Below, one piece after another: positions 23,991-59,998 of a DNA stretch of 64,000 bases. A model generated the notes under the pieces. The model worked only from the letters and a program-made list of their open reading frames with translations. It made no database searches and was not told the origin of the DNA. Position numbers and translations under genes: made by a program. The stretch is taken from positions 5,699,261-5,763,260 of the forward strand of contig SMSO01000031.1 of NCBI GenBank assembly GCA_004764695.1, written 5' to 3'. The stretch's first letter is position 1. The number at the start of each line of letters is the position of its first letter. The stretch comes from Schizochytrium sp. TIO01. Taxonomy: Eukaryota; Sar; Bigyra; Thraustochytrida; Thraustochytriidae.

Positions 23991-26900
23991 TTAGCTTGCA
24001 ATAAGACCATGTGTTCGCAACTTCACCAAGAGATCATTGAGTGTCGTTCTCAGCTCATTATTAAAATCGCGCAGCTTTTCACATTCGTCGCGCAAAGCCA
24101 TCACCTCAGATTGCGATGGAGTAGCTGAAAAGCTCAGCGAACCAATGGTACCATCGCCAGGATCATACGTAGTCCCCACACTAGTCACAGCAGCCTGCTG
24201 AGCGCCAAGCACCTGGGTACTGCCTACACTTAAGGTTGATACCCCACTCACAACGCCTCCGTTCATGGTAACTCCTTCTGCAATTAAATCGCCCCCACTA
24301 CTAATGGTAAGAGCTGTAGCCCCAGAATGAACAATACTTGCGGAAGCACTTGATAAAGTTAGATCACTACTCATCGACAATGTCGTGATACCAGACACTG
24401 CCGCAGAGTTCATAGTGACACCTTCCGCTATAAGATCACCCACGCTACTAATTGTCAAAGAGGAACTGCCTGTATGAGTGATAGCCGCAGCAGTTTTTGT
24501 GAGACTCAAGTCATCGCTCATGACCAATGTTGTGACACCAGAGACCGTGTTGTCGCTCAATGTGACACCATCCACTACAACGCCTCCCCCCGACGTAATA
24601 CTAAGAACAGATGTGTCCGCATGCGTAATGCTTTGACCTCCAATTTTACTAAGGACGATGTTACCACCTGTGTTCTCCAAATTACTGCTCATTGATAAAC
24701 TTGTAATCGAGGAAACTGCACCTGCATTTATTGTTACACCTTCGGCAATCAGGTTTCCGCCACTACTAATCGTCAGGGAGGTAGAACCTGAGTGCACGAT
24801 TGATGACGCCGCACTACTCATTGTCAACTCAGTACTCATGCCAAGAGTTGTGATTCCTGATACTGCACCTGCATTCATTGTTACACCTTCTGCAATCAGG
24901 TTTCCGCCGCTTGAAATAGTCAACGACGTAGCACCAGAGTGTACAATTGATGCTGCGGCGCTAGTAAGTGTAAGATCGTTGCCCATGGCAAGAGAAGAGA
25001 TACCACTCAGTGCACCTGTGTTGATGGTGACTCCTTCCACAACTACATTTCCTCCACTACTAATCGTTAGAGAGGTGGCCCCAGAATGTATAATTGAAGC
25101 AGCCGCACTGCTCATTGTCAAGTCACTTGTCATAGATAATGTCGAAATTCCAGACACAGCACCACTATTCATTGTTACACTTTCTGCAACAAGATTTCCT
25201 CCGCTGCTTATCGTCAGAGATGTTGCGCCTGAGTGCGTAATTGCAGCTGCAGCACTACTTAAAGTTACATCACCCACCAGGCCAAGAGCAGATATTCCAG
25301 ACATGGCGCCAGAGTTCATGGTAACTCCTTCGGCAATCAGATTTCCGCCACTACTAATCGTCAGGGAGGTAGAACCTGAATGCACGATTGAAGATGCCGC
25401 ACTACTCATTGTCAACTCAGTACTCATGCCAAGAGTTGTGATTCCTGATACTGCACCTGTATTTATTGTTATACCTTCTGCAATCAGGTTTCCGCTGCTT
25501 GAAATAGTTAACGACGTAGCACCAGAGTGTACAATTGATGCTGCAGCTTTGCTTAGACTAATGTCGTCTGTCATAGAAAAGGTACTGACACCAGACAGGG
25601 CATGATCGTTCATTGTAATACCATCTACGACAACGCCGCCACCAGATGTAATGCTCAGCACTGAAGAGTCTGAATGCACAATGTTCTGTGCGCCCACTTT
25701 ACTAAGCAATATATCACCACCGGAATTAACCAAATTGTTGGTCATCTGAATTGTTGTCACAGCAGATAAAGATGCACTGTTCATTGTGACCCCCTCCACG
25801 ACTACGTTGCCGCCAGAAAGTATCGACAAATCATTGCCTGATCCTCCAGTATGTTGTATTATTTGCGACCCAGTAGAGCTCATGAGTAGATGCCCTGCAC
25901 TAATCTGAATGTCTCCAGCCGTTGCTATTAAGTCATCTTGCAATGTCAGGGTAGAAACTCCAGATAGTGCACCGCTATTAATTGTTACGCCTTCAGCAAC
26001 CAAGTTGCCCGATGAACTAATTGTGAGTGAAGTAGCTCCAGAATGGGTAATACTTGCAGTGGCTTTAGTAAGTGTTAAGTCATCGCTAAGGGCCATAGTC
26101 GTAATACCTGCAACAGCTCCATTGTTCATAGTGACGCCTTCAGCAATTAAATTGCCTCCCGATGTAATTGTTAACGATGTTGCTCCAGCATGTGAAATTG
26201 TTGCAGCTGCCTTGCTCATAGTGAGATCTCCAGACATTGCAATGGTGCTTATAGAGGATAGGGAGCCTCCATCCATAGTAATCCCTTCAACGACAACGCC
26301 TCCACCCGAAGTTATACGTAGCTCTGATGTATCAGCGTGAGTGATAGATTGTACCGCTGAGCCAGACATTACAATATTTCCTCCAGAGTTGATATAGTTA
26401 CCAGACTGTGTCAATGTAGAAATACCAGAAACTACTCCCGCATTCATTGTTACACCTTCTGAAACCAAATCCCCTGCGCTACTAATAGTCAAAGAGGTTG
26501 TTCCTGAGTGCAAAATGCTCGCTGCACTCTTGCTCAGCATAAGATCATCAGTTATAGATAATGTTGAAACACCACTAACCATACCTGCATTCATTGTAAC
26601 ACCATCTACGATTACACTTGCAGAGCTTGTAATGCTAAGAGATGTTGCTCCAATATGGGAAATTGTTGCTGCACTTTTACTCATAGTAATATCATCCGTT
26701 AAACTGAGTGTGCTAGCTCCGGATATAGCAGCGTTATTCATCGTTACTCCGTCTATTTCAACCGCCCCTCCAGAAGAAATACTTAGCAGAGATGAATCCG
26801 CATGTGTAATACTTTGTGACCCTGATTTACCAAAAACAATATTGCCACCTGTAAGGGACAAATGGCTTGACATGTCAATTGTGCTTACGGATGATAGTGC

Positions 26901-29900
26901 GCCACTCTTTAAAGTGACACTTTGGACAACAACATTTCCTCCAGACGAAATCGTAAGGTCCCCCGTAGAGCTTCCCGTATGAGCAATTGACTGGGCTGAT
27001 GTTGACTGCAGTTGGATATTCCCTGCAGTAAGTTTTAGATTGCCAGAAGATGACGTCAAATCTCCAGAACTTGCTAGTGATGATATACCAGAAACAAGTC
27101 CAGTGTTTATTGTCACGCCCTCGACGACAAGATTGCCTCCGCTACTGATCGTCAGAGATGTTAGCCCAGAATGTACGATCGAAGCGGCGGCTTTACTCAG
27201 TGTCAAGTCGTCCGTCATAGCTAGTGATGATACACCTGACATTGCGCCCGTGTTCATCGTCACGCCCTCTGCAACCAGATTCCCACCGCTTGAGATTGAT
27301 AAGGATGTAGCTCCAGAGTGTACAATCGAGGCAGTCGCTGCGCTCATTGTCAGATCACTACTCATCCCAAGTGATGTCACAGCCGAAATCGCTCCGTTGT
27401 TCACCGTGACACCGTCCACAACTACGCAGCCCCCACTGCTGATTGTTAGCTCAGAGCTATCACTGTGCGAGATACTTTGAGCGCCAGCCTTTGACAGTAT
27501 CAGATTGCCTCCGGAGTTAGTTAGGTCACCAGAGATTCCTAGCGTTGAGACGCCGGTCACAGCGCCGGAATTTACTGTGACACTTTCAGCAATGAGATTC
27601 CCCCCACTGGTGATTGTCAAAGAAGTTGCCCCAGAATGAGAGATTACAGCTGCACTTTTGCTTAACGTGAGGTCGCCACTCATGGAGAGTGTGGATACTC
27701 CGGATACAGCACCGGTGTTAAGAGTGACCCCTTCGGCGATCAGGTCGCCCCCGCTGCTAATCGTAAGAGACGTTGCACCAGAATGACTGATGGATGCTGA
27801 AGCACCCGAGAGACTGAGGCTATTTGATAAACTCATCGATGTTGCGCCAGACATGATACCATTGAGTACAGTGACATCCTCCACGACAACACCTCCACCA
27901 CTGCTTATAATAAGCTCTGAAGTATCAGCATGAACTATACTCTGAGTACCTGTCTTACTAAGCAAAATGTTGCCCCCTGAAGTTGTTAGACTGCCGCTCA
28001 AACCCAGAGATGTTACACCAGATATAGCACCTGTAGTTACGGTCACGCCATCAAGAATAACATTGCCGCCACTAGTTATAATCAAATCTGCTGCAGCACC
28101 TCCCGAGTGGGTAATGTACTGTGAACCGCTAGATTGCATTAAAATATCTCCAACCAAAACCTTAACATCGCCACCTGAAAGTGTGATATCTCCGCTTGCG
28201 CCAATCGATGTTATTCCAGAAACTGCGCCTGCATTCATAGTCACACCTTCCGCAATAAGACTACCTCCACTACTGATCGTCAGAGATGTTAGCCCAGAAT
28301 GTACGATCGAAGCGGCGGCTTTACTCAGTGTCAAGTCGTCCGTCATAGCTAGTGATGATACACCTGACATTGCGCCCGTGTTCATCGTCACGCCCTCTGC
28401 AACCAGATTCCCACCGCTTGAGATTGATAAGGATGTAGCTCCAGAGTGTACAATCGAGGCAGTCGCTGCGCTCATCGTCAGATCACTACTCATCCCAAGT
28501 GATGTCACAGCCGAAATCGCTCCGTTGTTCACCGTGACACCGTCCACAACTACGCAGCCCCCACTGCTGATTGTTAGCTCAGAGCTATCACTGTGCGAGA
28601 TACTTTGAGCACCAGCCTTTGACAGTATCAGATTGCCTCCGGAGTTAGTTAGGTCACCAGAGATTCCTAGCGTTGAGACGCCAGTCACAGCGCCGGCATT
28701 TACTGTTACACTTTCAGCAATGAGATTCCCCCCACTGGTGATTGTCAAAGAAGTTGCCCCAGAATGAGAGATTACAGCTGCACTTTTGCTTAACGTGAGG
28801 TCGCCACTCATGGAGAGTGTGGATACTCCGGATACAGCACCGGTGTTAAGAGTGACCCCTTCGGCGATCAGGTCGCCCCCGCTGCTAATCGTAAGAGACG
28901 TTGCACCAGAATGACTGATGGATGCTGAAGCACCCGAGAGACTGAGGCTATTTGATAAACTCATCGATGTTGCGCCAGACATGATACCATTGAGTACAGT
29001 GACATCCTCCACGACAACACCTCCACCACTGCTTATAATAAGCTCTGAAGTATCAGCATGAACTATACTCTGAGTACCTGTCTTACTAAGCAAAATGTTG
29101 CCCCCTGAAGTTGTTAGACTGCCGCTCAAACCCAGAGATGTTACACCAGATATAGCACCTGTAGTTACGGTTACGCCATCAAGAATAACATTGCCGCCAC
29201 TGGTTATAATCAAATCTGCCGCAGTACCTCCCGAGTGGGTAATGTACTGCGAACCGCTAGATTGCATTAAAATATCTCCAACCAAAACCTTAACATCGCC
29301 ACCTGAAAGTGTGATATCTCCGCTTGCGCCAATCGATGTTATTCCAGAAACTGCGCCTGCATTCATAGTCACACCTTCCGCAATAAGACTACCTCCACTA
29401 CTGATCGTCAGAGATGTTAGCCCAGAATGCACGATCGAAGCGGCGGCTTTACTCAGTGTCAAGTCGTCCGTCATAGCTAGTGATGATACACCTGACATTG
29501 CGCCCGTGTTCATCGTCACGCCCTCTGCAACCAGATTCCCACCGCTTGAGATTGATAAGGATGTAGCTCCAGAGTGTACAATCGAGGCAGTCGCTGCGCT
29601 CATTGTCAGATCACTACTCATCCCAAGTGATGTCACAGCCGAAATCGCTCCGTTGTTCACCGTGACACCGTCCACAACTACGCAGCCCCCACTGCTGATT
29701 GTTAGCTCAGAGCTATCACTGTGCGAGATACTTTGAGCGCCAGCCTTTGACAGTATCAGATTGCCTCCGGAGTTAGTTAGGTCACCAGAGATTCCTAGCG
29801 TTGAGACGCCGGTCACAGCGCCGGCATTTACTGTTACACCTTCAGCAATGAGATTCCCCCCACTGGTGATTGTTAAAGAAGTTGCCCCAGAATGAGAGAT

Positions 29901-32900
29901 TACAGCTGCACTTTTGCTTAACGTGAGGTCGCCACTCATGGAGAGTGTGGATACTCCGGATACAGCACCGGTGTTAAGAGTGACCCCTTCGGCGATCAGG
30001 TCGCCCCCGCTGTTAATCGTAAGAGAAGTGGTTCCTATGTGCGAAATAAGTGCAGAAGTCTGTGTGAAGGTGAGAGTACCTGATGTAGTGGCTGAAGTAA
30101 TGCCAGAAAGAGCCCCATCATCGACTGTAATCCGTCGATAAGAACCCCACCGCCCGAAGTTATGCTTAACGTGGAGCTATCCGCATGAGTAATGCTTTGC
30201 GCACCAATTTTACTGAGTATAATGTTACCTCCAGAATTAGTAAAACCTCCTGACATTTGCAATGAAGTAATACCTGAGATTGCTCCTCCTGAGCCCACGG
30301 TAACACTCTGTACTACCACGTTTCCACCGGAAGAGATCATCAAGTCTTTATCAACAGCCCCTGTATGTGTGATGTATTGAGCTTGAGTTGATTGTAGTAG
30401 AATATCGCCCGCTCCCAATAATAGGTCACCACCTGTCGATTGAATCTGGCCGCTCATAGTCAAGGTGCTAACTCCTGACATAGCTCCACTGTTCATCGTT
30501 ATACCCTCCGCAATAAGTATTCCACCACTAGAAATCGTTAACGAGGTCAAACCTGAATGCGTGATCGCTGCAGCAGCTTTACTTAGTGTCACATCATCTG
30601 TCATGGACAGTGTACTCACTGCTGAAACGGCGCCATTATTGATGGTAATACCATCAGCAATAAGGTTCCCCCCACTGCTGATGGTCAATGATGTTGTGCC
30701 AGAGTGACTGATGGATGCTGTAGCCGCGCTCAACGTCAGGTCTCCAGACATCCCAAGGCTAGTAACAGATGATAAAGCGCCATTTGCCACAGTCATACCG
30801 TCAACAATCACGCAGCCTCCGCTACTGATAACAAGGTCAGAAGCGTCTGCATGAGTGATTGCTTGAGCCCCAGCTTTGGATAGAATGATGTTACCAGCTG
30901 AGTTGGTAAAGTCACCAGAAGTTGCTAAGCTGGACACGCCAGAGACTGCACCATTATTGACTGTAACGCCTTCCATGATCAGGTTTCCAGCACTGCTGAT
31001 TGTGAGCGATGTAGCTCCAGAATGTACAATTGATGCGGATGCTTTGGTCATACTTAGGTCGTCAGTCATCTGGAGAGACGTAACTGCAGAGACCGCTCCT
31101 GAATTAAACGTTACTGCTTCTATAATGATATTTCCGCCACTGATTAACGATAGAGATGTGGTGCCAGAGTGTACTATTGTTGCTATTGCCTGTGTCATTG
31201 TAAGACTGTCAGTCATTGATATGGTGGAAGCTCCAGATATAGCAGCATCATTGAGTGTAACTCCATCAACAATCACGCCACCACCTGATGAAATACTAAG
31301 CACTGAATTATCTGCATGACTTATACTCTGCGCGCCTGCTTTGCTGAGGATAATATTACCTCCCGAATTAGTAAAGTCGCCACTCATTTGCAAAGATGCT
31401 ATTGACGAAAGACCTCCAGAAGAACCAATCTTGACACCCTGGATTGCAACGTTTCCGCCAGAAGAAATTGTTAACCCAGCTCCAGATGCACCGGTATGAC
31501 TGATAAGTTGCTCTTGAGATGATTGTAGTAGAATATCGCCCGCTCCCAATAATAGGTCACCACCTGTCGATTGAATCTGGCCGCTCATAGTCAAGGTACT
31601 AACTCCTGACATAGCTCCACTGTTCATCGTTATACCCTCCGCAATAAGTATTCCACCACTAGAAATCGTTAACGAGGTCAAACCTGAATGCGTGATCGCT
31701 GCAGCAGCTTTACTTAGTGTCACATCATCTGTCATGGACAGTGTACTCACTGCTGAAACGGCGCCATTATTGATGGTAATACCATCAGCAATAAGGTTCC
31801 CCCCACTGCTGATGGTCAATGATGTTGTGCCAGAGTGACTGATGGATGCTGTAGCCGCGCTCAACGTCAGGTCTCCAGACATCCCAAGGCTAGTAACAGA
31901 TGATAAAGCGCCATTTGCCACAGTCATACCGTCAACAATCACGCAGCCTCCGCTACTGATAACAAGGTCAGAAGCGTCTGCATGAGTGATTGCTTGAGCC
32001 CCAGCTTTGGATAGAATGATGTTACCAGCTGAGTTGGTAAAGTCACCAGAAGTTGCTAAGCTGGACACGCCAGAGACTGCACCATTATTGACTGTAACGC
32101 CTTCCATGATCAGGTTTCCAGCACTGCTGATTGTGAGCGATGTAGCTCCAGAATGTACAATTGATGCGGATGCTTTGGTCATACTTAGGTCGTCAGTCAT
32201 CTGGAGAGACGTAACTGCAGAGACCGCTCCTGAATTAAACGTTACTGCTTCTATAATGATATTTCCGCCACTGATTAACGATAGAGATGTGGTGCCAGAG
32301 TGTACTATTGTTGCTATTGCCTGTGTCATTGTAAGACTGTCAGTCATTGATATGGTGGAAGCTCCAGATATAGCAGCATCATTGAGTGTAACTCCATCAA
32401 CAATCACGCCACCACCTGATGAAATACTAAGCACTGAATTATCTGCATGACTTATACTCTGCGCGCCTGCTTTGCTGAGGATAATATTACCTCCCGAATT
32501 AGTAAAGTCGCCACTCATTTGCAAAGATGCTATTGACGAAAGACCTCCAGAAGAACCAATCTTGACACCCTGGATTGCAACGTTTCCGCCAGAAGAAATT
32601 GTTAACCCAGCTCCAGATGCACCGGTATGACTGATAAGTTGCTCTTGAGATGATTGTAGTAGAATATCGCCCGCTCCCAATAATAGGTCACCACCTGTCG
32701 ATTGAATCTGGCCGCTCATAGTCAAGGTACTAACTCCTGACATAGCTCCACTGTTCATCGTTATACCCTCCGCAATAAGTATTCCACCACTAGAAATCGT
32801 TAACGAGGTCAAACCTGAATGCGTGATCGCTGCAGCAGCTTTACTTAGTGTCACATCATCTGTCATGGACAGTGTACTCACTGCTGAAACGGCGCCATTA

Positions 32901-35900
32901 TTGATGGTAATACCATCAGCAATAAGGTTCCCCCCACTGCTGATGGTCAATGATGTTGTGCCAGAGTGACTGATGGATGCTGTAGCCGCGCTCAACGTCA
33001 GGTCTCCAGACATCCCAAGGCTAGTAACAGATGATAAAGCGCCATTTGCCACAGTCATACCGTCAACAATCACGCAGCCTCCGCTACTGATAACAAGGTC
33101 AGAAGCGTCTGCATGAGTGATTGCTTGAGCCCCAGCTTTGGATAGAATGATGTTACCAGCTGAGTTGGTAAAGTCACCAGAAGTTGCTAAGCTGGACACG
33201 CCAGAGACTGCACCATTATTGACTGTAACGCCTTCCATGATCAGGTTTCCAGCACTGCTGATTGTGAGCGATGTAGCTCCAGAATGTACAATTGAGGCAG
33301 CTGCACTGCTTAAAGTAGCATCTCCTGCCATATCGAGGGCAGATACACCAGAGATGTGACCACTCGCAACTGTGATCGACTCTATGTGTACATTACCAGC
33401 TGTAGATGTTATGAGAAAATCTTGTCCTGAGCCTCCAGTATGCTCTATAGATTGAGCGCTAGTAGAAGTGAGCATAATGTTCCCGGCAGAGTTAGTGAAC
33501 TGGCCAGACATAGTGAGCGAGGAAACAGAGGACACTGTGTTGCCAGAAAAGGTTACACTTTCAACTGCCACTGATCCTGCTGATGAAATTGAAAGGCCAC
33601 TTGCACCAGTGTGCAAAATATTGGCGGACGCAGCTGACATCGTCAAGTCGCTATTCATATTTGCAGAGACAACTCCAGAAAGTGAGCCTTCAGAGATAGT
33701 TAATCCATCAACTATGACATTACCTCCTGAGGAGATTGTAAGATGTGAAGATGCCCCCCCGGTGTGTGTGATACGTTGAGATGATGTTGATGAAAGTAGC
33801 AAGCTACCAGACGACAACGAGAGGTCCTCCGTCATTGATAAGGTAGTAACTCCTGCAACAGCCCCACTACTGATCGTAACACTCTCGATTGCTACTGATC
33901 CTGAAGAAGAAATACTAAGAGAATTGGTGCCAGAGTGGGTAATGGTTGCTGATGCTGCTGTCAGTGTAAGAGAACCAGACATTGACAACGAGGAGACAGA
34001 GGACAGCGCACCATCATTGATAGTGACCCCATCAATGACCACATTGCCTCCTGAAGAGATACTAAGATCCTTTCCAGTTCCTCCTGTATGTGTAATCGAT
34101 TTGCTTGCAGTGGAGGTCAAACTCAGGCCTCCGCCAGATGACACAATATCTCCTGACATTGATACCGACCCCACAGATGACATATCGCCACCGGAGAAGA
34201 CAACATTTTCAACACTAACAGTACCTAACGAGCTGATTGCCAAGGAAGTAGCACCAAGATGTTGAAATGTAGCTACCGCCTGTGTCATTGTTATACCCCC
34301 GTTCATAGAAATAGATTTAACTGAGGATAAGTCACCAGCCGAGACAGTTAGGCCGTCTACAACAATATTCCCACCAGATGAAAGAATGAGATCTTCTCCT
34401 GAACCACCAGTATGCGCAATACGTTGACTTGATGTGCTTGACAAAATAATATCGCCTTCTGCATTGTCGAAGTCTCCAGTCATAGTGAAGGAATCAACGC
34501 TAGATATGTCTGCTCCAAGAAATGTGACAGACTCTAGCTGAACATAACCGGATGACGCGATAATAAGAGCAGTTGTCCCAGAATGGGAAATTCGTGAAGT
34601 AGCTTTTGTCATGGTTAGGTCGTCGCTCATGCCGAGCGAGGAAACTGCTGAAACAGCTGAATCACTAATGGAAACTCCGTCAACAACAATACCACCACCA
34701 GATGAGAGTGTTAACAGTGAGGAGTGTGCATGATTTATCACTTGTGCTCCTGATTTGGATAGAAGTATATTTCCACCACTATTTGTGATATCGCCAGTCA
34801 TGGCAATGGCGGAAACTCCGGAAATGCTTCCTGTATTCATAGTAATACTTTCTATTATAACATCTCCACCGCTACTTAGTGTCAAAGACCCGGATCCAGT
34901 ATGCTGAATTATTGAGGCAGCCTTTGACATTGTAAGGTCTCCTGTCATGGCAAGAGATGTAACACCGGAAACCCCGCCCTCGTTCAATGTTACCGCTTCT
35001 AAGATAAGGTTTCCTGAAGAAGATATAGAAAGGGATGTTGCACCGGTGTGTGAAATCACTGCATTTGCCTTGGTCATTGTCAAAGCATCGGACATAGAAA
35101 ATGTGCTGACACCACTCATGGCCCCTTCATTAATCGTCACTCCTTCTGCGATGAGGTCGCCTCCCGAAGAAAGAATCAGGTTTGATACATCAGCATGAGA
35201 TATCGTTTGTGCGCCTACCTTTGATAAAATAATGTTTCCTCCTGAATTGACAAGATTGGCGCTCATTGAGACCGATGCCACTGCTGAAATATCCGAATTC
35301 TGAAATGTTACCTGTTCAACTACAACATTTCCAGCAGATAAAATGTTGAGCTCACTGGCACCTAAGTGCTGAATGTAAGTATGGGTGCTGGTTAAAGAGA
35401 TATTCCCTGACATTGCAACCCCTGTGGCGCCAGATATAACATGTTCATTGAATGTTACGCCCTCTACCACAACTCCGCCTCCAGACTCAATGACTAGCTC
35501 AGACGCATGAGGGTGGGATATGGTCTGTCCACTCGCACTTGTTAAGAGGAATGCCTGTCCGGAGTGCGTCAAGTTTCCTGTCATAGCTAGAGAAGAAATT
35601 GCAGAAACAGAACCTGCGTTGAAGGTGACCCCCTCCACTGTAACTAGACCTGATGTAGAAGCTATGGTTAGTGCAGTCGCGCCCGTATGAAGAACAGAGG
35701 CTTCTGCCCCACTAAGAGTTAAGGTTCCCGAAGAAGTTAAGTCTACGAGCCCTGTTATAACACCTGAAGAAACCGAAATGCCCTCTACTATTACACTTCC
35801 GGTTGTACTAGTGATCGATAAGGCTACGGCTCCGGCGTGAACAATTGAAGCAGAGTCAGAAAGTAGAGTCAAGGCATTGGACATACTCATCGTGCTCACG

Positions 35901-47900: not shown

Positions 47901-50900
47901 TCTCCTTCTAAGATCAGGGAGGAATCAACTATGATGCCTCCAACACCACTGATCAGATCGTCAGCAAACGTGATTTGCTCGACCTGTACAACTCCAACAG
48001 ACGAGGTTATTAAGAGTTCATTCGAGCCCGTATGTCTTAGCGAAGAGCTAGGACCACCTAAGGAAATTTCACTTTCTACATCAAGGTTTTGCACACCCAA
48101 AACATTTCCGCTAGAAACTGTGACGCTTTGCATAATCACATTCCCAAAACTGGATGAAATATTCAGATCCTCTCCAGCTCCTCCGACGTGAGAGATTGCC
48201 TGTCCACTTGTTGAAGACATCAAAATATTACCGCTATCAATATTCAATGACCCAGCCATAGACAATTCGCTTATACTAGATAAATCACTCGTAGGACCGA
48301 TGGATACCCCATTTATCACTACGTTTCCACCAGAAGTGATATCTAGGTCATTTCCTACGCCACCAACATGCGCAATAGATGCTTCAGATGAGCTATCCAA
48401 TACAATATTTCCGCTTTCAGATATAATATCTCCTGCTGCAGTGAAAGTTTGAACGTTGGAAACATTGCCACCATTAAACAATACGTCATCCACTAATATA
48501 GCACCAAACAAAGATGATATTGATAGAGAAGTAGTTCCACTGTGTACAATATTTGATACATCTTGTGACATAGACCAGTCACCTGACATAGCAAAGTTCT
48601 CTACTCCCTCCAAAGAGGCCTCTGAAAACGTCACTCCTTCAAGAACCACATTTCCATTCACAGAATCTATGGAAAAATCATTTCCAGAGTCTCCATAGTG
48701 TGTCATTTCTTGCGAAGACGTGGAACTAAATAGTATATTCCCAGACCTAATTTCTATGTCGCCAGTCATACTGATACTAGAAATTCCATCCATGGCCGAA
48801 TTCTCTACCGTCACGCCATCCACTATAACATTGCCACCCGAGTTGATGAACAAATCCTCTCCAACTCCCCCAACATGAGTAATACTCTGCGACAATGTAC
48901 TGCTCAGCGAAATACTTCCACCACTACTCTCAATCGTCCCAGATGCAACCATACTACCAACACCAGAAACACTATCCCCATCAAACACCACATCTTCAAT
49001 ACCCACCGTTCCTGATGTTGAAATAATGCTCAAAGATGTACTTCCGCTGTGAACAAACTCTGCAGAACCCGACGACATCTCCAGATCTCCAGACATCCCC
49101 AGACTCGAGACCCCCGACACAGCACCGTTCTCCATTGTCACACCGTCAACAACAACATTGCCACCTGAGCTGATCAAAAAATCTGATCCGCTACCACCAA
49201 CATGATTCAGTGACTGCGAGGCACTGGAGCTCAGCGATATATCACTCGCAATGTCAAGCGTCGATATACCACTCACAGCACCGCCATTCACAACAACGTC
49301 CTCAACTTGTACATAGCCTGAGCTCGAGCTTACTTCGAGAGATGTCGCACCGCTATGCACAATGCTAGTGACATCTTTGGATAGACTCAGGTCATCGCTC
49401 ATTGACAGTGTACTCACACCTGACACCGCACCTCCATTGAATACGATATCCTCAATACCTACCGTGCCAGATGTAGACACAACAGAGAGTGACGTCGTGC
49501 CACTATGTGTAATGTACGCTGTATCAGCACTGAGACTCACCGGCCCACTCGCGGATATACCGCCAACGCCACTCAGTGCACCTCCATTCACGGTCATGCC
49601 GTTTACAATGACATTGCCACCAGAGCTGATGTCCAAATCTGCTCCTGTGCCACCATTATGAGTAATGGATTGTCCAAGAGAGCTCGCCATGAGTAGACTA
49701 CCGGCAGAGTTTGTTAGGTCACCACTCATTCCAAGATCACCCACTGAAGACACGTCGGTGGCGTCAAACGTGATACCCTCAATAGCTACATTGCCCCCAG
49801 ATGAGATCAGTAGCTGGCTACCAGTGCCACCAGTGTGTGTGATAGCTTGCGAGCTTGTCGAAGCAAGAAGCAAACTTCCAGCAGAGGTGGTGAAGTCGCT
49901 GGTCATAGTCAAGGTTGAAACACCATCGACAGCGGTGCCTGTAAAGGTGACGTCCTCGACTGCAACAAAGCCAGACGCCGACTCGATAGTCAACGACGTA
50001 GCGCCTGTATGCAAGATTTGTGCTTCATCTTTAGAGAGCACCAAGTCATCCGAACTGTCAACCCCGGACGCTCCAGAAATAAAACCGTCCTTCAAGGTAA
50101 CCCCATTGATTACAACATTGCCTCCAGACCCGATTGTGAGGTCCTCGCCAGACCCACCTGTATGTGTAATGGCTTGTGCTAGAGAAGAGGCCAGCAAGAC
50201 ATTCCCTGCACTATTCGACAGGTCTCCACTCATGCTCATCTCACCTATGGAAGAAACCGATGTCCCATCAAAAATGACATCTTCCACCAACACACTTCCA
50301 CTTTGCGAGCTTACGCTCAAAGATGTGGTACCAGTATGAAGAATTGAGCTCGTATCTTTAGTCATCGCCAAATCATCATCCATGGTCACGGCCTGCACAC
50401 CAGTCATTGTGCCATGATCGATAGTGATCCCGTTGATTACAACATTGGCACCAGAGCTAATAGTGAGATCTTCACCTGCGCTACCCGTGTGCGTGATGGC
50501 TTGACTACTTGCAGATGCAAGGAATATATTGCCAGTATCAATACTGAGATCACTGGACATCTCTGCCGATGCAATGCCTGTGAGAACTCCATTTTTCACA
50601 GTGACCCCATTCACGACAATATTTCCAGCTTGAGAACTGATCAAGAAGTCTTGGCCGGCTCCTCCCGTGTGCGTGATTGCCTGAGACAGCGAGCTTGTAA
50701 GGTAGAGATTGCCAGAAGAAGATGAAATATCGCCTGACACTGAGATTGTCGATATCGAAGAAATACTTTGACCGTCAAAGACAACGTCTTCAATTTGCAC
50801 GGTTCCTAACGTCGATGAAAGTGCTAGAGATGTAGCTCCAGAATGCTGGATACGCGCAGTGTCTTTTGAGAACGAAGCATCGTCACTCATGGTGATGCTG

Positions 50901-53900
50901 GTGACTCCAGACAGTGCTCCAGAGTTGTGCACTATGCCATTGATAACGACATTGGCTCCGGAAGATATAGTGAGATCTTGTCCTGTCGAGCCTGAATGAG
51001 CAATTGCTTGTGCACCTGAGCTGGATAGTAGAAAATTACCAAGTGAAAGGGTAGCATCCCCGGAGACAATCTCCAGCTGGCCATTCATAGTTAAATCTGT
51101 CACCCCAGAAATATCAGTCCCATCCATTGTGATCCCCTCTACGGTGACAGAGCTAGCTGAAGAGATTGAGAGTGAACTTGTTCCAGAATGTTCGATTGTT
51201 GCACTGTCTTCTGTGAAGGTAAGGTCTGCGCTCATTGTAAGACTCGTGACCCCCGTAACAGTACCCTCGTTTACACTGACACCATCTAGAACAAGATCAC
51301 CGTTTGAACTAAGAACGAATGCTGAGTTATCTGTGTGCGATATTTCTTGGGATCCAGTACCTGAAAGTATGATGTTTCCACCACTATTCGTAAGGTCGCC
51401 CTCCATAGTGATGCTTATCGCACCGCTGACAGCTCCATTGTTGATCGTGACATCATCAAGAATGAGGTCCCCACCGGAGGTTACTTCTAAAGTACTAGAG
51501 TCGTCATGCGAAATCAGTTGAGATCCAGCTTTACTAAATGTCAGATCTCCGCCGGAGATTTCGACACTGCTAGACACTGTCAAGGTTGAAACTCCAGTGA
51601 CAATGCCATCTTGTACTGAAACACCATCTAAAACTAGTTTCCCACCAACAGATGATACCTCAAGATCACCTCCACCGGTTTGTGATATAGTTTGTAGGCT
51701 TGACGATGAGAGTAAAAAATCGCCACTTTCAAGCGTTGCTCCTCCAGAAGAAAGAACAAGATCCCCGCTCATGTCAATGGTTGTAACGCCAGAAAGTGCA
51801 CCAGATGACACTGTAACACCATCCACAAGTACATCACCGCCAGACTCAATCGTTAAGTCGACTCCAACCCCACCAGTATGTGTAATCTTCTGACTACCTG
51901 AGGAGGTAAATAAAACACTTCCAGAGCTAAGCTCTATATCACCTGATTGTGTTGTCATAGTGTCTGTCATTGTTAGCGTCGAGATACCAGATAAAGAACC
52001 TTCATTTATCGTAACACCCTCCGTAATTAGGTTACCTCCAGTTACGATACTTAATGATGATGTTCCAGAGTGTGTGATAACGGCATCTTCACTTGTGAGC
52101 GTGATGCTGTCTGCTACTGCTAATGATGTGACTTCGGAAATGGAACCTTCGTTGATTGTAACACCATCTAGAACAACAGCGCCACCAGAATCAATAATTA
52201 GTTCGGAGCTATCAGGATGCGTAATTGTCTGAGAACCTTGACCAGAAAGCTGAAATGTTGTACCTGTGCTAGAGAAGGTGCCAGACACTGAAAGATCAGC
52301 AACCCCATCAATGTTCCCTGATTGGTGTGTTACGCCATCCGTAACAACACCTCCACCAGAGGAAATAGTCAGCAAAGATGAATGCGTATGAATGATGCTT
52401 TGCGGTCCCAGTGCACTTAAGGTAATGCCACTGCCGGACACATCAAGACTGCCACTCATCGCCATAGACCCAGCTCCTGAGATGTCGCCAGCATTAAATG
52501 TTACTTCCGCCGCAATAAGACTTCCAGAAGTGCTTATCTCTAGAGAAGTCGTTCCAGTGTGAAGAATCGTAGCCATATTGTTGGTGAACTCAATACCCTC
52601 TGTAAGTTGAAGATTGCCGACATCAAACATATCTCCATCTTGGATCGAGACCCCATCTACCACAACATTTCCGCCTGAAGAAATTAAAAGATCCTCACCA
52701 GATCCACCTAAATGACTTATTGCCTGTGAGGTTGCGCTATCAAATACAACGTTACCATTACTTAAAGAAAGATCTCCACCACCCATGCTTAAAGCACTGA
52801 TCCCGCTCATCTCACTGCCATCAATATAGATATCCTCCATAGCAATGGAGCCTGAGCTTGCACTCACGGCTAAATCACCAGATCCAAGATGAAGTAATTG
52901 TGCTGCAGAACCACTCAACATGAGGCTCTGAACTGCTGAGATCTCTCCCTGATTTATTGTCACGTCATTTACTACAACATTTCCTCCAGAGGAAATACTT
53001 AAATCTCCTCCGCTTGTGCTACCAGTGTGCGTAATATGTTGACTTGCTGAATTTGTGAACAAAAGACCTCCGGCTGCTAAAGAAATGTCATTGGCCGTTT
53101 GCAAAGTGCTCACCCCAGTAATATCCCCAGAATCGAATGTGATATCGTCTATCATAATTATGTTTGAAGTAGAGGTAATTGACAAAGAAGTACTTCCGGT
53201 GTGAGCCAATGAAGCAAGCTCCCCACTTAAAAGTAAGTCCGCTGACATTTCAATGCTCGATACACTCGTTATTGCGTTGCCATCAAAGACAACATTTTCG
53301 ATGCCCACAGTTCCTGATGATGAAAGAATGCTGAGGGAAGTAGCGCCAGTATGTGTAATGGTGGCATCGTTTTGTGTCAATATTAAACTCCCGGACATTG
53401 AAAGGTCAGACACTCCTCGCAGTTCTCCATCATTCAATGTGACGCCATCAACCACAATGTTTCCACCTGACGTGAGTGTTAAGTCCTCACCAATACCTCC
53501 GGTGTGAGAAATTGATTGAGCTGTTGAGCTTCCTAAAAATATGCTTCCGAGAGAGAGAGTTAGGTCTCCAGACATTCCCAACCCATCGATGCCTTCTACT
53601 TGCCCTGTTTTAAAAGTAGCTCCTGCAATCACGACATTTCCTCCTGATGACAGGATTTCAAGATCTGCGCCAGCACTACCGATGTGCGTTATCTTTTGAG
53701 CGGATGTTGAAGAAAATAGAATACTACCTGCGCTCATCGAAAGGTCTTCAGACATTGAAAGAGATCCAACGTTTGAGAGATCACTACCATCGAACGCAAC
53801 ATTTTCAATAGTTACCAAACCAGAGGTCGACTCGATTGACAGACTAGTGCTTCCAGCGTGTGTGATTGCTCCAATGTCTTTGGTCATTGTTAAATCCGCA

Positions 53901-56900
53901 CTCATTGAGAGATCCACCACTCCTGAAACAGATCCTCCATTGAAAAGAACATCCTCAACGCGGACGATTCCACTAGACGAAGTAATGACAAGACTGGTGC
54001 TACCAGTGTGGGTGATCTGGGCAGCATCTTGACTCATTGTCATCGAGTTTGACATGGAAAGCGTGGAAATACCATCCACAGCTCCTGTTGCAAATGAGAT
54101 TCCTTCTACAACAACGTTACCACTAGAAGAGTCAATAGTAAGGTCTTGTGCTGCGGCCCCAGTATGTAAAATTGACTGAGCACCGCTGCTCGTAAGCAAG
54201 ATTTGCCCACTTGAAATGGAAAGATCATTAGTCACCGAAAGCGATCCAATACCAGTAATATCACCGCCATTAAAGACGACATCTTCTACAGATACAGTTC
54301 CAGATGAAGAAGAAATTGCAAGAGATGATGATCCTAAGTGAGAAATTTGGGCGATCGACTTTGTCAGTGATAGGTCTCCTGACATGTCAACTGTTGTAAC
54401 AGAGGAAAGAGCTCCATCAGAGATGATTACATCCTCAACCCGAACAGGACCTTGATCTGATACCACATGGAGTTCAGTTGCTCCGGTATGTCGAATAGTG
54501 GTAGTTGACTTGGACAGAGAAAGGTCATCCGTCATGCCCAAGGTAGAAACTTGTGATATTGCTTGATCTTGAAAGAGAACACTCTCAATATTCACCAACC
54601 CTAAAGCGCTTTCCAATACAAGTTGTGTGTTTCCTGTATGCTGAATTCCTACGGAGTCCCCAATCATGGTTATGTCACTAGCTATGCTCATAGAAGATAT
54701 GCCAGAAAGAGCAGAGTTAGCATGGGTAACGCCATCTACAACTACATTTCCACTTGAAGAAGAAATGTCAAGGTCAGCTCCGGCCGCCCCACTATGCGTG
54801 ATTTGTTGAGAGGCCGTTGATTGTAAATCGATATTTCCAGATGCCATAGTGAGGTCTCCATTCATCGAAACAGTCGAAACAGATGAAAGTGCAGCTCCCT
54901 GAAATATTACATCTTCAATTTTTACAGTACCAGAGGTCGAGACTACCTCCAAAGAACCTGCACCTGAATGTTCTATGCGCGCTGTGTTTGCAGTCAGCTG
55001 CAACGGCCCTGCCATGGTCTGCGAAGACACCCCCGAAAGTTCTCCATTGCTAACCGTTACTCCATCTAGCACAACATTACCTTCTGATCTAATCGTAAAG
55101 TCTTGTCCTGATCCACCAGAGTGAATGATGGCTTGAGCATTGGAAGACTGCAATAAGATATTTCCTGTACTCAATCTCAAAATACCATTTATGTCAATAT
55201 CTTGAATATTTGACATTGAGGCGCTGTCAAACAGAATATCTTCAACACTGATGCATCCACTTGTTGAAGTGATGCTAAGAAGAGTTGCTCCCGAGTGATC
55301 AATATAAGACATATCAGCACTCAACTCAAGACGATTTTCTATCTGTAAATCAGTAACGCCACTCACTGCCGCAGCGTCAAAGGTTATATCCTCAATCAAT
55401 ACAGTCCCAGCTGAGGAGACAATAGTCAACGAAGTCACTCCTGAGTGCGCGATGGTTGCGGTATCTTTGGACACCGTTATATCGCCACTGGCCTGGAGTG
55501 TAGAGACTCCGGTAATTGTAGTGTCCTGGAAAGTAACCCCTTCAAGATAAACAACTCCTGAATCTGATTCAATCGTGAGAGATGTCCCGCCGCTATGCTG
55601 GATACGCGTCACATCTTTTGAAAATCGCAAATCATCTGACATATCGATAGTAGAAACCCCAGATAATGCATCGCCTTCAAACGTTACGCTTTCAACAATA
55701 ACATTACCTTGTACACTAGACAACGAGAAATCACCTACTCCACCTGGACTACCAGTGTGTACAATTTCTTGACTTGAAGTTGATTGAAAATAAGCATTAC
55801 CCAGTGTACTACTGATATCACCAGAAAGGTCAAGATTTCTGACTTCGGAAATATCAGGGCCGTCAAATGTAACACTCTCAAGAGATACATAACCCGACTG
55901 AGACGCAATAGTGAGAGATGTAGTACCACTATGCGTCAAAGAAGCAGCGTTCTTACTCATAGTCAAATCATTGGACATTGATAAAGTTGTTACCGAAGAC
56001 ATCGCGGACCCACTAAAAACTACGTTCTCGACCACAACATTGCCTGCAGTGCTTACAAGATGAAGATCCCCATTCGCGCCTCCAGTATGGCGGATTCGCT
56101 GAGTAACTGTGCTCGTAAATGAGACGTCGCTATTAACAGCGATTGTTTCCACGTTTGAAACAGCTCCGCCACTAAACTGGACATCTTCTATACTTACTGT
56201 TCCCGAGGCTGAAGATATTGCAAGACCTATAGCTCCGCTGTGCACTACATGAGCTTCTGATTGAGACATTATCAGATCGCCCGACATTGAAACAGTTCCA
56301 ATCGCGGATATATCTGCTCCGCTAAACGTGACGTCTTCAACAGTCACAGCACCTTGATCACTAATAATTTGAAGATTACCTGTTGTACCAGTGTGTACAA
56401 TGTTTTGCTTGGTGCTCGCGGAGAGAATAAGATCCCCACTCGCAAGTTCCAAATCTCCAGATGTTTTGATACGGCCACCGTCTTGAAAAATTACATCTTC
56501 CACAACAACATTCGCATTGGTAGATGTTATAAAAAGGTCTTCATTGGAAATGCCTTCATGAATGATATTTTGTGTGCTGGTTGAAGCTAAAATCAAGTCC
56601 CCAGTTTGCAGAGTCAGTACATTCGGGATCACAAGAGATCCGTTTTTTGCTGTTACGCCATCGATTTGTACATTTCCAAATGTTGAGAAAACAACAAGGT
56701 CCTCTCCCACGGCACCTGTATGCAAAATTCTTTGTGATGTGACGCTTGTCAGATCCACATTTCCATTTAATGAAAGAAGACCATCTTCAAAAATAGCATT
56801 TTCAATGTCTACTGCCCCAGAGCTTGATGTAATAGTTAATGGTCCGTCAGATATGATCTCACTTCCTTCGTTGTTTGCATCGAGTATAAGGCTTTGTACA

Positions 56901-59900
56901 TTGCTAACAGTGGTGTTTTCAAACAAGATGTTCTCTATCTCAACTCCCTCGTTGGTAGAAGTTAATTTAAAGCGACCTTCTTGAGCTGTAAGACCTCGGG
57001 GAGAAACCCAAAGGGTTTCATTGAGGATAAGAGTGTCATTTTCATGCCGGAGATTCATCGTTGTAAGTAATCCGCCTGCACCATATACAGTGATATATTC
57101 TGCAGGCTGAGATTTAGCGCGCAAATCAAGCGCTGCAAATTCATAGTTCCCAATATCTAGATCAGCTGATGCGGTAAATGATGTGATACCGTTAATCTCT
57201 GCACTACTAGATATTTCTCGCCAGGCTACACCATCAAATATGAGCAAGACACTTCCTCCAGGTGGTATTGCAATATCCCCAGATGTAACCTCTTCGTCAT
57301 CATTTTGCAAAAATAATAACTGTCCAATAGAAGCCTGTGAAGTTGATATGGTCACCAGATTAGACTCCTGCGCACCATCACCTAAAATGCGGACAAAGCT
57401 TTGGTTGGTGAAAACATTTATTGAAGACCCAGCATTTACATTTGCCTTGTCAAAAATAACTTGTCCATTAGCATAGAAGGCGCCCGATGCAGTGATAGAA
57501 GCGCCATTCTGGGTACTAATAGCTTCTTCAGTCAGAATAGGCCCAAAACCAGGCTGTATGCTACCCACAGTTAAATTCCCTGTCATATTAATATCTTCCA
57601 TGTTGCCTGTAGTCAGAATGGTACCTGTTATAACTTTTGTGGGCACGACAAGGGTAGTGTCAGCGCTGTTCGGCGCTTGATCGATGCGTAAGATGACTTT
57701 GTAGGGGTCTGTTCGAGACACTTTAAAGTTGAGAGGTTCACTTCCAGTAATAATTGTGTCAAAGCGTGCAAAGTCATCATGACCATCGAGACCAACAATC
57801 ACATTGCCCGGTAGATACGTTATGCTATCCGAATCTCGATTGTTTTCAATATGCACGTCTCCTTCGCTAATGAGCTGGTCGCCAGTAATGCCAAGACCGC
57901 CCTCGATCGTTAGATTATGTATTAGACTGAGATGCATCTGTTTGAAGTTGACGCGTGTCAAGTTCAATGCCCCGACCGTGATGTATTCAATGAAGTTTGG
58001 CGGATTGAGTTCACGACTAACGATAGTTGCGTTCGTTATATCAATTGCATCCAATACATTCAAACGGCTAGCATTGAGTGTTTCTCCCACTTCTGCACTC
58101 GACACCATGACTTGACCTGCGCGAATTGTGTTTTCAAGGCCAATGTTAATATCTCCGAAACCTTCAGAGATAGATCCAGTCTGCAGTTCACCTCCGACAT
58201 TTAAGTCACCGTCAATTGTTACGTTGTATAATGCGTGAAGAAGTGGCGTGATCACTTGCATCTGACTCGTGTTTAGACGAAGCAGTGTCTCGGATCCAAT
58301 CCGGGTCTGCAGGTCATCCGATGTGCGAATCAATTGTGCACCTTCGGTCAGGTTGGTGCTTGCAGAGTGCGCAAGCATAATTGCTGCACCTTCTTCTGTA
58401 ATACCAACCTGGATCATAGGAAGATGCTCATGGTTTCCTGAATCCTCATTTGTCTCAAGGGGTGTCACCAGCAATGATGGGGCTTCCAGAGTTCCATATG
58501 CTTTCAGAGGAGTTGAGATTTTCAGAATTTCATTCTCATAGAAAAGAGTGGAAGAGTCGATCGAAACCGAGCCATCTACTTGGGCATCTCCAGAGACGTG
58601 GAGTCGCTTCTCCGGATTGCCTGTACCAATTCCAACCCTCGATGTGTTGGTGGAACTGCCAATTGCAATAACTGAGGATACACCAGAGTCAATAGCTACA
58701 TCATTTGCTGCACGCATCTCGAGTTTGGCATCAGAAGAACGAAGATAGCCGGTCATTCGAAACGAGTCGTCAAAAAGGTGTTCACCAAACTCTAAGATGG
58801 TATATTTGGTGGTCTCCAGACTCCGTCTAGGTTGTGGTTTGGATGAAGGGTTGGACTTCTCAGCCTTAGTTCCCGGACTTTCTCCAGGGGAGATTTCTGA
58901 TTCGGATGTGCTTGTGTGTGCTGTTGTTGCGATTTTAGATGAACCATATAAAAGCCATGGTGCTGGCGAATAAATACTTTGAGCAGGTGTTTGAACTTGA
59001 TTGGAGAATGCTGTTTTCTTAGGTTTGGATGTGCGGGCATCCCCAAGCACGCGTCTTTCCCTGCGGCGTGCTGCCTCACTTTCTGTTTCTTTAGTTGATA
59101 ACCTAATGGTACTAGTGCTTGTGTCTGACGCCTTTGACGAGACTTCGAGCTCGACTTCAGGATTTAGACTGTGGATTCCAATACTTCCATCGGGGGTGAC
59201 GATCGAGGACTCTTGGATTAGGAGGTTCGAAACGTCGAATTCAATACCATAGTACTGACGCAAAAGCACAGACATGACCCAAAGCACGAAAAGAATCGTC
59301 AAACTTAATAAAGCGCCCCAGGTAGCAAATAAGAGAGCACGTTTACGATATCGAAATGGGTTATATGATAAATCTCGCGCTGTGAGAAGCTTTTCTGCTT
59401 CTTTGTCTGGAAGAATTCGAGCCCCTCGTCCAGTCAAAAATCCTCGAAGTTGTGTACCTGTCTTTGTCATTGGGTTCGCCCCGCGCGTTTCAGCATTTGT
59501 GTCTTCGTCGTCAGATTTTTCATCACCCTCTGTATCTGAATCATCCACTAGGTCTTTGTCTACCACGCCTTTTGCCCCAGCTTCCCTCAGAGCTTCTGCA
59601 AGCATGTCCTTTGTATCGGGCATATTCAGGTCGCTTCCACTATCATCAACTTCTCCTTTCCCCTTAGTATCGCTCGCTCCAGTTTTGGCGCCCCAAGCTT
59701 GGCTCGGAGCTTTTGGTGAATCCGGTTCAATGCCTACTGAAGAAATCTTTCTCCATCCGCGTTTCTTTTTTTGTTTCTGTGCTACATTCTTCAAGCCTTG
59801 AGTTTCATGCGCCTGCCTTGTTGTGGATAATTTATTTTTGCCAACTTTAGAGCTCAACATGTCATTCTGTGAATCATTGATGCCTTCTTGAGTATCTTCA

Positions 59901-59998
59901 AGATTGGTTGATTTCTTCTTCGTGTTATCAACAATTTGGGACGAGGCCCCTTCGTCCTGTGACTTCCGCCTCTCGGCCCACGTGAGGTATTCGTCCAT
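23991..59998 (-). CDS. Giant repeat-built membrane-anchored fibre protein (~12,000 aa, one frameshift)
   Basis: This minus-strand gene starts at an ATG with strong context (ACCATGG) and ends at TAA at 23991-23993. It is open for 9,955 codons to about 30131, where one base is missing, and then continues in register for another ~2,045 codons to the end. Allowing for that base, the product is about 12,002 residues with no evident intron. Residues 1-220 are acidic, Lys-rich and probably cytoplasmic. Residues 221-246 are a membrane segment preceded by RYRKR, which predicts a type II topology. Residues 250-1080 form a head with tail-fibre-like motifs. About 200 units of 49, 57 or ~66 residues follow, each with I-x-H-[ST]-G or H-A-D, then L-x-I-x-S, G-x-[VL]-x-[VI]-[ED] and S-x-[VI]-x-[ST]-[LM]. 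The last ~38 residues form a leucine-rich coil ending HGLIAS. I infer an extracellular, probably trimeric, beta-structured fibre; no function is established. Confidence 0.85.
23994..24110 (-). other. C-terminal coiled-coil of the giant protein
   Basis: The final 39 residues (SEVMALRDECEKL, later LNDLLVKLRTHGLIAS) show heptad-spaced Leu/Val with charged flanks. The ending resembles the terminal coil of many phage and viral fibre proteins (LNxLLxxLRxHGLI), where it is thought to register the chains. Its presence in frame is also evidence that the 3' part of the gene is real and under selection. Confidence 0.7.
27143..30026 (-). repeat. Tandem array A, 1128-bp period, 2.56 copies
   Basis: Copies begin at 27143, 28271 and 29399, the last partial and diverging at 30027. 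They are nearly identical with scattered single-base differences, for example GCGCCGGAA versus GCGCCGGCA in the copies around 27570 and 28690. The period is 376 codons and contains seven fibre units. Confidence 0.95.
30130..30131 (-). other. Single-base frameshift in the giant gene
   Basis: On the plus strand GTAATCCGTCG stands where sister units have GTAAC(T/G)CC(A/T)TC. Restoring one base between 30130 and 30131 gives a normal DGVTVDDGALSG-type unit and rejoins two open frames of 9,955 and ~2,045 codons. Without it the frame ends after about 33 abnormal residues, at 30035. The site lies in the single-copy spacer between tandem arrays A and B. No slippery heptamer is visible. Confidence 0.85.
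30389..33295 (-). repeat. Tandem array B, 1131-bp period, 2.57 copies
   Basis: Copies begin at about 30389, 31520 and 32651, the last partial and diverging at 33296. The copies are almost identical. The 377-codon period also contains seven fibre units, in the same cyclic order of length classes as array A. Confidence 0.95.
41557..43810 (-). repeat. Long internal duplication C, copy 1
   Basis: About 2.25 kb. Bases from 41586 onward match 48810-51034 at an offset of 7224 with very few differences, and the first ~1.25 kb matches copy 2 at an offset of 3789. It encodes repeat units of the giant protein, so the duplication kept the reading frame (all offsets are multiples of three). Confidence 0.93.
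45346..46592 (-). repeat. Long internal duplication C, copy 2 (short)
   Basis: About 1.25 kb nearly identical to the first part of copy 1. Similarity ends near 46592, where different units follow. Confidence 0.93.
48810..51034 (-). repeat. Long internal duplication C, copy 3
   Basis: About 2.2 kb nearly identical to copy 1, with small differences such as GAACGAAGC versus GAGCGAAGC near 50870 and 43650. It ends at the same unit position as copy 1. Confidence 0.93.
57213..57404 (-). other. Tail-fibre-like head segment of the giant protein
   Basis: It encodes a stretch from SFVRILGDG through QLLFLQNDDEEVTSG to LLIFDGVAWREIS. From memory, this N-to-C pattern (value list, 'ISTSxASxGQLLF', then a Gly/Ile strand and 'FDGxAWR') is common in bacterial and phage tail-fibre-type proteins. 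It is non-repetitive and lies just before the repeat array. Confidence 0.5.
58565..58639 (-). other. VGIGTxNPxKRLHVSG motif of the giant protein
   Basis: Residues about 454-478 contain RVGIGTGNPEKRLHVSG followed by DAQVDGSVSI. This signature is typical of the head or shaft start of phage and bacterial tail-fibre-like proteins that often end in an intramolecular chaperone. I see no S74-type chaperone peptidase at the C-terminus here; a plain coil is found instead. Confidence 0.65.
59261..59338 (-). other. Single transmembrane anchor of the giant protein
   Basis: Residues 221-246 (ALLFATWGALLSLTILFVLW and following) are a strongly hydrophobic span. It is preceded by RYRKR and followed by RQYYGIEFD. 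The positive charge on the N-terminal side predicts that the N-terminus is cytoplasmic and the repeats extracellular or lumenal. Confidence 0.85.

Follow-up and report, generated by a model that had tools for sequence, protein, structure and literature searches.

A 36-kb gene of Schizochytrium sp. TIO01 for a putative membrane-anchored surface fibre of about 12,000 residues

The trimeric tail fibres of phages and bacteria are built on a general plan of head, repeats and coiled-coil end. Among eukaryotes, stramenopile mastigoneme proteins of the PPTG_02441/PnMas1 type are described in the available part of PMC12223298 as having a signal peptide and lacking a transmembrane domain. EGF-like domains are presented as a feature of hair proteins in general (PMC5756292, available in part), and for the mastigonemes of small ocean heterokonts a figure of 1–2 µm is given (PMC9310263, likewise in part). 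No membrane anchor of such filaments is named in the partly available literature covered by our non-exhaustive search; nothing relevant to hair terminal filaments in thraustochytrids (sources available in part) or to a giant repeat protein in Aurantiochytrium was found among the literature matches listed. Here we describe a giant gene in a 64,000-nt stretch of Schizochytrium sp. TIO01 DNA (the window). The 18S of this genome is thraustochytrid in appearance: of two labyrinthulomycete primers, LABY-A fits it exactly and LABY-Y with 2 mismatches, in both copies inspected. It occupies 23991..59998 of the minus strand, as do all the features below, and comprises about 12,000 codons without a visible intron, for a product of about 1.18 MDa. 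Judged from its sequence, it is probably a single gene under selection; its product, at ~12,000 residues, would be a type II protein that crosses the membrane once and forms an oligomeric, multi-chain surface fibre.

The minus-strand frame running from 59998 to 30035 is open for 9,987 amino acids (open reading frame list and translation). A second frame of the same strand is stop-free from 30176 to 23991 (2,061 codons; 1,982 amino acids, 29939 to 23991, if counted from the first ATG), and the same repeats go on in it. Where the two open frames overlap (30035..30176), the repeat pattern is lost near 30130, and reading by eye indicates that the frames are split at this point by one base too few; the stop at 30035, ~95 bases further on, closes an out-of-frame tail. 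Apart from this break-linked stop there is none across about 12,000 codons. At the base composition of the region, 9,987 open codons would arise by chance with a probability of ~10^-250 and 2,061 with one of ~10^-52, and the third frame of the strand contains 817 stops within the region, which together rule out a chance open frame. The frames and the codon odds thus confirm the preliminary description, in which ~36 kb of one strand were read as open save for one missing base and as encoding ~12,000 residues.

Copies of long blocks within the gene reveal how it has been changing. Downstream of the break, the copies of a 1,128-base higher-order repeat (27129..30026) are 98.9% identical and differ by 15 synonymous and 5 nonsynonymous changes; 15 synonymous out of 20, against an expectation of 27%, has a binomial p of 9e-6. 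On the other side, two overlapping comparisons of middle blocks gave about 30 synonymous differences out of 61 and 30 out of 64 (p 6e-5 and 2e-4). An excess of synonymous changes both before and after the break argues, from sequence, for one selected gene in which the break is an assembly error or a very recent event. Two further duplications are nearly identical: a 1,131-base higher-order repeat (30382..33295; copies 99.9% identical) and a 2,235-base block whose copies, 41576..43810 and 48800..51034, are 99.5% identical. Such recent block duplications would alter the length of the fibre. More diverged pairs of units had a mean pS of 0.73–0.81, above a pN of 0.37–0.41, with synonymous sites near saturation.

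The predicted protein begins with a charged segment, residues 1–227 (59318..59998), which starts MDEYLTWAERRKSQ and is predicted to be cytoplasmic. This agrees with the cytoplasmic tail claimed previously, except that, at 227 amino acids, it is not so short. A transmembrane anchor follows at residues 228–246 (59261..59317). With a mean hydropathy of 2.45 it is the only strong hydrophobic stretch, as the preliminary description had it; three weak ones (1.60–1.62) fall within the repeats or the out-of-frame tail. The basic flank NPFRYRKR precedes this single internal anchor and, by its charge, suggests an N-inside, type II orientation. The head, residues 247–1090 (~840 amino acids; 56729..59260), contains the GIGTGNPEKRLHV motif (58595..58633), or GIGT..P..LHV, which we take to be typical of tail-fibre-like proteins. 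An ~840-residue head is present, and its assignment to the fibre type goes back to that one motif, with no family match in the part scanned (to residue 999). The first 999 amino acids had no match in PHROGs, NCBIfam or a PDB sequence search, and in Pfam only NMB0537_N, below the cut-off (E 0.17), in the N-terminal part; a cathepsin match of the head profile (E 0.12) was taken as noise, and when the whole first frame was used to search for related proteins, none of 3,377 candidates proved a relative for region 200–700. The structure model of the head was poor (pLDDT 35.8).

Beyond the head, a profile of the repeat unit (E 1e-3) matched 163 times in the first frame (30131..56728) and 38 times in the second (24240..30130). 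Partial units flanking the break merge into one, so that the earlier count of about 200 repeats holds. The gene ends in an 82-residue C-terminal cap (23991..24239) that includes the predicted coiled coil SQSE...LRTHGLIAS (23994..24116). There the earlier claim of a terminal coil is borne out by a helix predicted at pLDDT 85–96, with hydrophobic residues at eight of nine a/d positions in the most favourable of seven registers, a result equalled by 294 of 20,000 shuffles. The monomer model of the repeats, on the other hand, had no strands (pLDDT 64–81; pTM 0.36 and mean pLDDT 72.8, the other four models reaching 56.9–67.4), and fold searches of the PDB with the cap and the repeat model returned no matches, one of the two being able to align one chain only. 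Given these values we assign the repeats no fold, whether a beta-solenoid or triple-beta-helix fibre with regularly stacked strands or another, and offer the trimer as a proposal. Strandless repeats beside a confidently modelled cap helix are compatible with, and no proof of, a chain that needs partners. Ankyrin-like matches that the repeat profile gave in the PDB (best E 0.041) were dismissed as noise; two Pfam matches in the last 1,982 amino acids, DUF7712 (28 bits, cut-off 27) and DUF2884 (26.7 bits, below its cut-off of 30.6), were dismissed as repeat artefacts, no single stretch passing.

The search of the genome turned up one further gene carrying these repeats, on contig C24 (G000:C24:653025-668333). 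It is intact and encodes 5,102 amino acids by translation and in other search rows (5,474 in three rows). This sister has 70 units of the same repeat family and the same cap (69% identical), but differs in having an EGF head of secreted type, a 5′ intron, an unbroken frame and no anchor in its 5,102 residues. Two Pfam EGF families exceed their cut-offs (EGF_Teneurin, 43.7 bits; EGF_2, 43.3 bits) and EGF_TEN falls below (49 bits, cut-off 65); by eye, the 5′ exon holds a further cysteine module, and a hydrophobic leader, for which no start codon was found, lies ahead of the first cysteine module. Outside this genome, a search that requires shared 5-residue words, is limited by length and scored 8,000 candidates found only one relative of the head, P0004 (recorded as Durusdinium trenchii SCF082_LOCUS51719). 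It has the same start, with most of the N-terminal segment conserved, the anchor, two head blocks (44% and 53% identical) and 15 repeats, and differs in its size (1,632 amino acids on an 11.4-kb contig) and in a cap absent from the record. The SCF082 reads held contaminant microbial DNA, and contaminant scaffolds are said to be filtered out (PMC11259175, available in part); P0004 may therefore be a thraustochytrid contaminant that escaped the filter, or a true homologue. The uniqueness implied by the preliminary description is not supported: besides the intact sister, an open frame listed at 16,277 amino acids and unrelated to either gene lies in the same genome. "New class" is too strong for what so far amounts to a two-gene family here with one outside relative.

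The sequence shows the frames, the units, the homology of the cap, the selection on the frame and a relative with the same start and anchor. Topology, oligomeric state and surface location are what we infer. The N-terminus would stay in the cytosol and the anchor would span the membrane, while the head and about 200 repeats would form a long, acidic, Ser/Gly/Thr-rich fibre outside the cell. The cap would oligomerise the chains, probably as trimers, and set their register; the repeats of several chains would then zip together into a single fibre whose base sits in the membrane and whose tip is shut by the C-terminal coiled coil. Of the giant cell-surface filament suggested earlier, the single selected gene, the anchor, the repeats, the coiled-coil end and, by inference, the surface topology stand, and no choice is shown among adhesion, net, scale and hair. 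If the proposal is right, a very long membrane-anchored extracellular fibre is made as one polypeptide, and the intact, shorter sister provides a built-in comparison.

It is quite possible, if short of probable, that the fibre belongs to the surface of vegetative cells, in the ectoplasmic net, in the wall or in adhesion, where an anchored thread would hold the cell to a surface or form a coat; this differs from the explanation above in place only. P0004 as the only head relative found is what a lineage-specific structure would give, and PMC12221091, in its available part, sets out to find membrane and extracellular proteins of the net that are specific to labyrinthulomycetes. However, none of the 18 candidates in Table 1 of that partly available source is described as a giant repeat protein, and the EGF module of the sister points to hair-type proteins. 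That module also occurs in Triparma, as well as in proteins of the same genome whose layout is that of known flagellar-hair proteins of stramenopiles. Because the only sister found carries it, the lead we follow for the most likely place, tentatively and from sequence, is the flagellar hair (mastigoneme) or a hair anchor. Triparma has EGF-type fibres, yet the 5-residue-word search, within its length limits and 8,000 scored candidates, did not find the head there; any role in hairs would therefore need to be specific to the lineage.

Should each residue add 0.15–0.2 nm, as in intertwined fibres, about 11,000 fibre residues would extend 1.6–2.2 µm. This is near the size given for mastigonemes of small ocean heterokonts in the available part of PMC9310263. 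A more doubtful step further is that the giant protein serves as the membrane-anchored core or the length ruler of a stramenopile flagellar hair, one polypeptide passing from the cytosol through the membrane and along the hair, with the EGF-headed sister as a second filament that ends in the same cap. The number of repeats would then set how long the hair is. The EGF-headed sister turns the flagellar-hair guess into a testable one.

Other readings concern the gene itself. Decay, in which the break is genuine and the whole protein is no longer made, would fit a frame that is broken in the assembly and for which a search with the first 999 amino acids found no second copy there; we consider it unlikely, since the synonymous excess in duplicates on both sides of the break, seen in copies only about 1–4% diverged, and the lack of any further stop in about 12,000 codons count against it. 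Two independent genes, a 9,987-residue protein ending near 30035 and a separate one of 1,982 residues, are what the deposited assembly literally reads. This is very unlikely, and we rejected it: the first product would finish in an out-of-frame tail without a cap, the second would begin in the middle of a repeat without a hydrophobic entry signal, and the downstream frame has both the synonymous excess and a cap shared with the sister. Least likely of all is an integrated viral or phage-derived tail-fibre gene, suggested by the fibre-like head motif and by weak PHROGs matches of the last 182 amino acids (tail needle family, E 0.0011) and last 1,982 (E 0.0098 and 0.096, to two families without an assigned function), and rejected because neither viral contigs (0 of 11 pattern matches for the cap, 0 of 3 for the repeats and 0 of 5 for the head) nor phages (cap or head) yielded a confirmed relative, while the protein has a membrane anchor and a cytosolic part and, of nine neighbouring frames scanned, three belong to ordinary cellular families and six gave no match. 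A scan of prokaryote genomes likewise gave no relatives among 36 pattern matches, and Rfam no match in the window.

As a membrane-anchored fibre, the protein can be set beside three described systems. It follows the general plan of the phage and bacterial trimeric tail fibres, but has a eukaryotic membrane anchor and showed no sequence relation to them beyond the weak match in the coil region: the tail-needle hit was all that PHROGs, Pfam, NCBIfam and phage genomes returned towards a tail-fibre family, for the first 999 and the last 1,982 or fewer amino acids. In Triparma, TrRE_jg12443 (P0006) and TrLO_g6161 (P0007) have the sister's EGF module followed, by eye, by fibre-like GG-repeats; these are partial records of 684 and 745 amino acids, in which no relation to the window head was found. 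From the PPTG_02441/PnMas1-type mastigoneme proteins, as far as the available description goes, the window protein differs in its membrane anchor, internal at residues 228–246 in place of a signal peptide without a transmembrane domain, and in lacking an EGF domain: Pfam detected no EGF family when given the first 999 and the last 1,982 amino acids, and across both whole frames the 10 cysteines that follow the anchor include no pair within 7 residues of each other. It is the sister's EGF module, together with a 643-residue protein of the same genome, that resembles the mastigoneme layout as described in that source, and the window protein would in turn be a concrete candidate for the means by which surface filaments of stramenopiles, perhaps including the group's characteristic flagellar hairs, are attached to the membrane and have their length measured.

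The minus strand of the window (G000:C30:5699261-5763260, in an assembly of 64.06 Mb and 37 contigs) carries two long open frames. The first runs from an ATG at 59998, with an in-frame stop just two codons upstream, to a stop at 30035 (9,987 aa), and the second from 30176 to 23991 (2,061 codons, or 1,982 aa counted from its first ATG); at the region's composition, the chance of such open lengths is ~10^-250 and ~10^-52, respectively. By eye, the first frame drops its repeat pattern near 30130 and then adds ~31 out-of-frame residues before its stop, and the second frame resumes the pattern at that place. One base too few accounts for the frame switch, in agreement with the preliminary description of a 36-kb strand open apart from a single missing base. 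Plus-strand open frames of 155-315 aa lie opposite the gene (including 24658-25605, 42441-43115 and 49665-50339) and are probably mirror frames, not genes. The window also encodes a SAM-domain protein (13551-15902), an EDR2_C/PH protein (18873-21644) and a hydroxyacylglutathione hydrolase-like protein (22741-23565). Third-position G+C is 0.37-0.39 in the giant gene (23991-59998) versus 0.48-0.52 in three neighbours.

The giant gene contains near-identical blocks, and therefore recent duplications: 41576-43810 with 48800-51034 (99.5% identical), a 1,131-base unit at 30382-33295 (copies 99.9% identical) and a 1,128-base unit at 27129-30026 (98.9%). Downstream of the break, 15 of 20 inter-copy differences are synonymous, against 27% expected (p = 9 × 10^-6). 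Two mid-gene comparisons gave ~30 of 61 (p = 6 × 10^-5) and 30 of 64 (p = 2 × 10^-4), and are not independent, because they have one block in common and the second block of one nearly duplicates that of the other; the remaining two pairs (5 of 12 and 1 of 2) hold too few differences to tell. The synonymous excess shows that the giant gene, well supported as a gene, is under selection and that, until very recently, both frames were translated. The break falls between two nearly identical arrays, and its simplest reading is an assembly error; alternatively, it is real and recent.

The whole protein has a mass of ~1.18 MDa. The single membrane anchor proposed earlier was recovered as the one strong hydropathy stretch, residues 228-246. 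Residues 1-227 are charged, with NPFRYRKRAL near their end, and few charges lie directly past the anchor; under the positive-inside rule, this probably places the N-terminus in the cytosol. The head (residues 247-1090) had been called fibre-type. It does carry a GIGTGNPEKRLHV motif typical of tail-fibre-like proteins, yet a scan of the first 999 aa yielded nothing in PHROGs or NCBIfam and, in Pfam, nothing above cut-off. A profile built from the repeats found 163 + 38 units in the two frames (median spacing 53 and 49 aa), or 200 once two partial units at the break are merged, as many as previously estimated. Ser, Gly and Thr abound in the repeats, which are strongly acidic and almost lack Pro and Cys. 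The cap (last 82 aa) is modelled as two short strands at low confidence (pLDDT blocks 48-55) plus a helix at pLDDT 85-96. Of the 7 registers of this helix, which upholds the proposed terminal coil, the best has hydrophobic residues at 8 of its 9 a/d positions, and so does the best register in a sister gene described below; as good a score was reached by 294 of 20,000 shuffles (58 of 20,000 for the sister).

Such a protein could form a thread that is rooted in the membrane and closed at the tip by a coil. In the monomer model (pTM 0.36) the repeats have moderate confidence and zero strands, and the cap helix is confident; modelling of the head was unsuccessful, and no solved structure was matched to the cap or repeat model. 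Fibres of several intertwined chains often appear strandless and of moderate confidence when one chain is modelled alone. Because the strandless repeats and confident cap helix fit this behaviour, we favour a model in which the cap would gather chains, probably three, and the repeats would zip between them. A fibre part of ~11,000 residues would be 1.6-2.2 µm long at a rise of 0.15-0.2 nm per residue, but only ~0.2 µm long if one chain formed a solenoid of 25 residues to each 0.48 nm turn. Mastigonemes of small ocean heterokonts are put at 1-2 µm, with terminal filaments of 0.3-0.4 µm (PMC9310263).

Within the genome the first 999 aa matched only their own locus, and the repeats and cap one further locus, the sister gene (G000:C24:653025-668333), in a search that scored best candidates only, so that more copies are possible. 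The sister has an uninterrupted frame of 5,102 aa with 70 repeat units and a cap 69% identical to that of the window gene. Its front, however, differs, consisting of cysteine-rich EGF-like modules and a hydrophobic leader, the latter encoded by an exon further upstream (read by eye); the intron has GT-AG ends, and joining the exons keeps the cysteine pattern going. The same module occurs at 10 other loci, in open frames of 306-814 aa. Near the sister gene lies a 1,142-aa open frame (G000:C24:637822-641250), the start of which is presumably kinesin-motor-like. Nor is the giant gene unique in size within this genome, where a frame around G000:C32 920765-921031, unrelated to it, is reported as 16,277 aa; a PA14 domain lies within the 666 aa examined.

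Searches of viruses, phages and prokaryotes confirmed zero relatives. Of 8,000 candidates scored against the first 999 aa, one passed, a 1,632-aa protein recorded as Durusdinium trenchii SCF082_LOCUS51719. Its start is nearly that of the window protein (MDEYLKWAERRDSQ), its juxtamembrane and anchor segment is the same, and its head blocks (44% and 53% identical) are followed by repeats of similar kind. The gene sits on an 11.4 kb contig. According to the strain's genome paper, the reads contained contaminant microbial DNA, and contaminant scaffolds were filtered from the assembly (PMC11259175); the source of the protein may be the alga itself, or a thraustochytrid present in its culture and missed by the filter. 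The sister's EGF front retrieved 20 of 8,000 scored candidates, including proteins of Triparma retinervis and T. laevis that likewise run on into fibre-like repeats.

That the window gene encodes a membrane-anchored fibre is well supported as to the gene and reasonably so as to topology. Its place on the cell is a matter of leads, of which the flagellar hair is ours. Against it count the absence of the window head from other haired stramenopiles in a limited search and the lack of an EGF domain in the window protein (zero cysteine pairs within 7 residues in either frame); the fibre may instead belong to the ectoplasmic net, the wall or an adhesion structure. The 18S gene of the assembly looks thraustochytrid and close to Aurantiochytrium (Labyrinthulomycetes, within the stramenopiles). 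One study describes zoospores of Aurantiochytrium losing flagellar proteins on settling, including a putative mastigoneme protein (PMC12221091). We tentatively suggest a flagellar-hair component because the repeats and cap are common to the sister, the sister carries the EGF module, and the module leads to the described layout of hair proteins. Among the module's carriers, a 643-aa protein ~90 kb from the giant gene (L059:205-2136; G000:C30:5849208-5849474) has a leader-like N-terminus, three EGF_2 stretches (Pfam) and nothing above the hydropathy threshold used for anchors and, compared by description alone, matches the layout of mastigoneme proteins.
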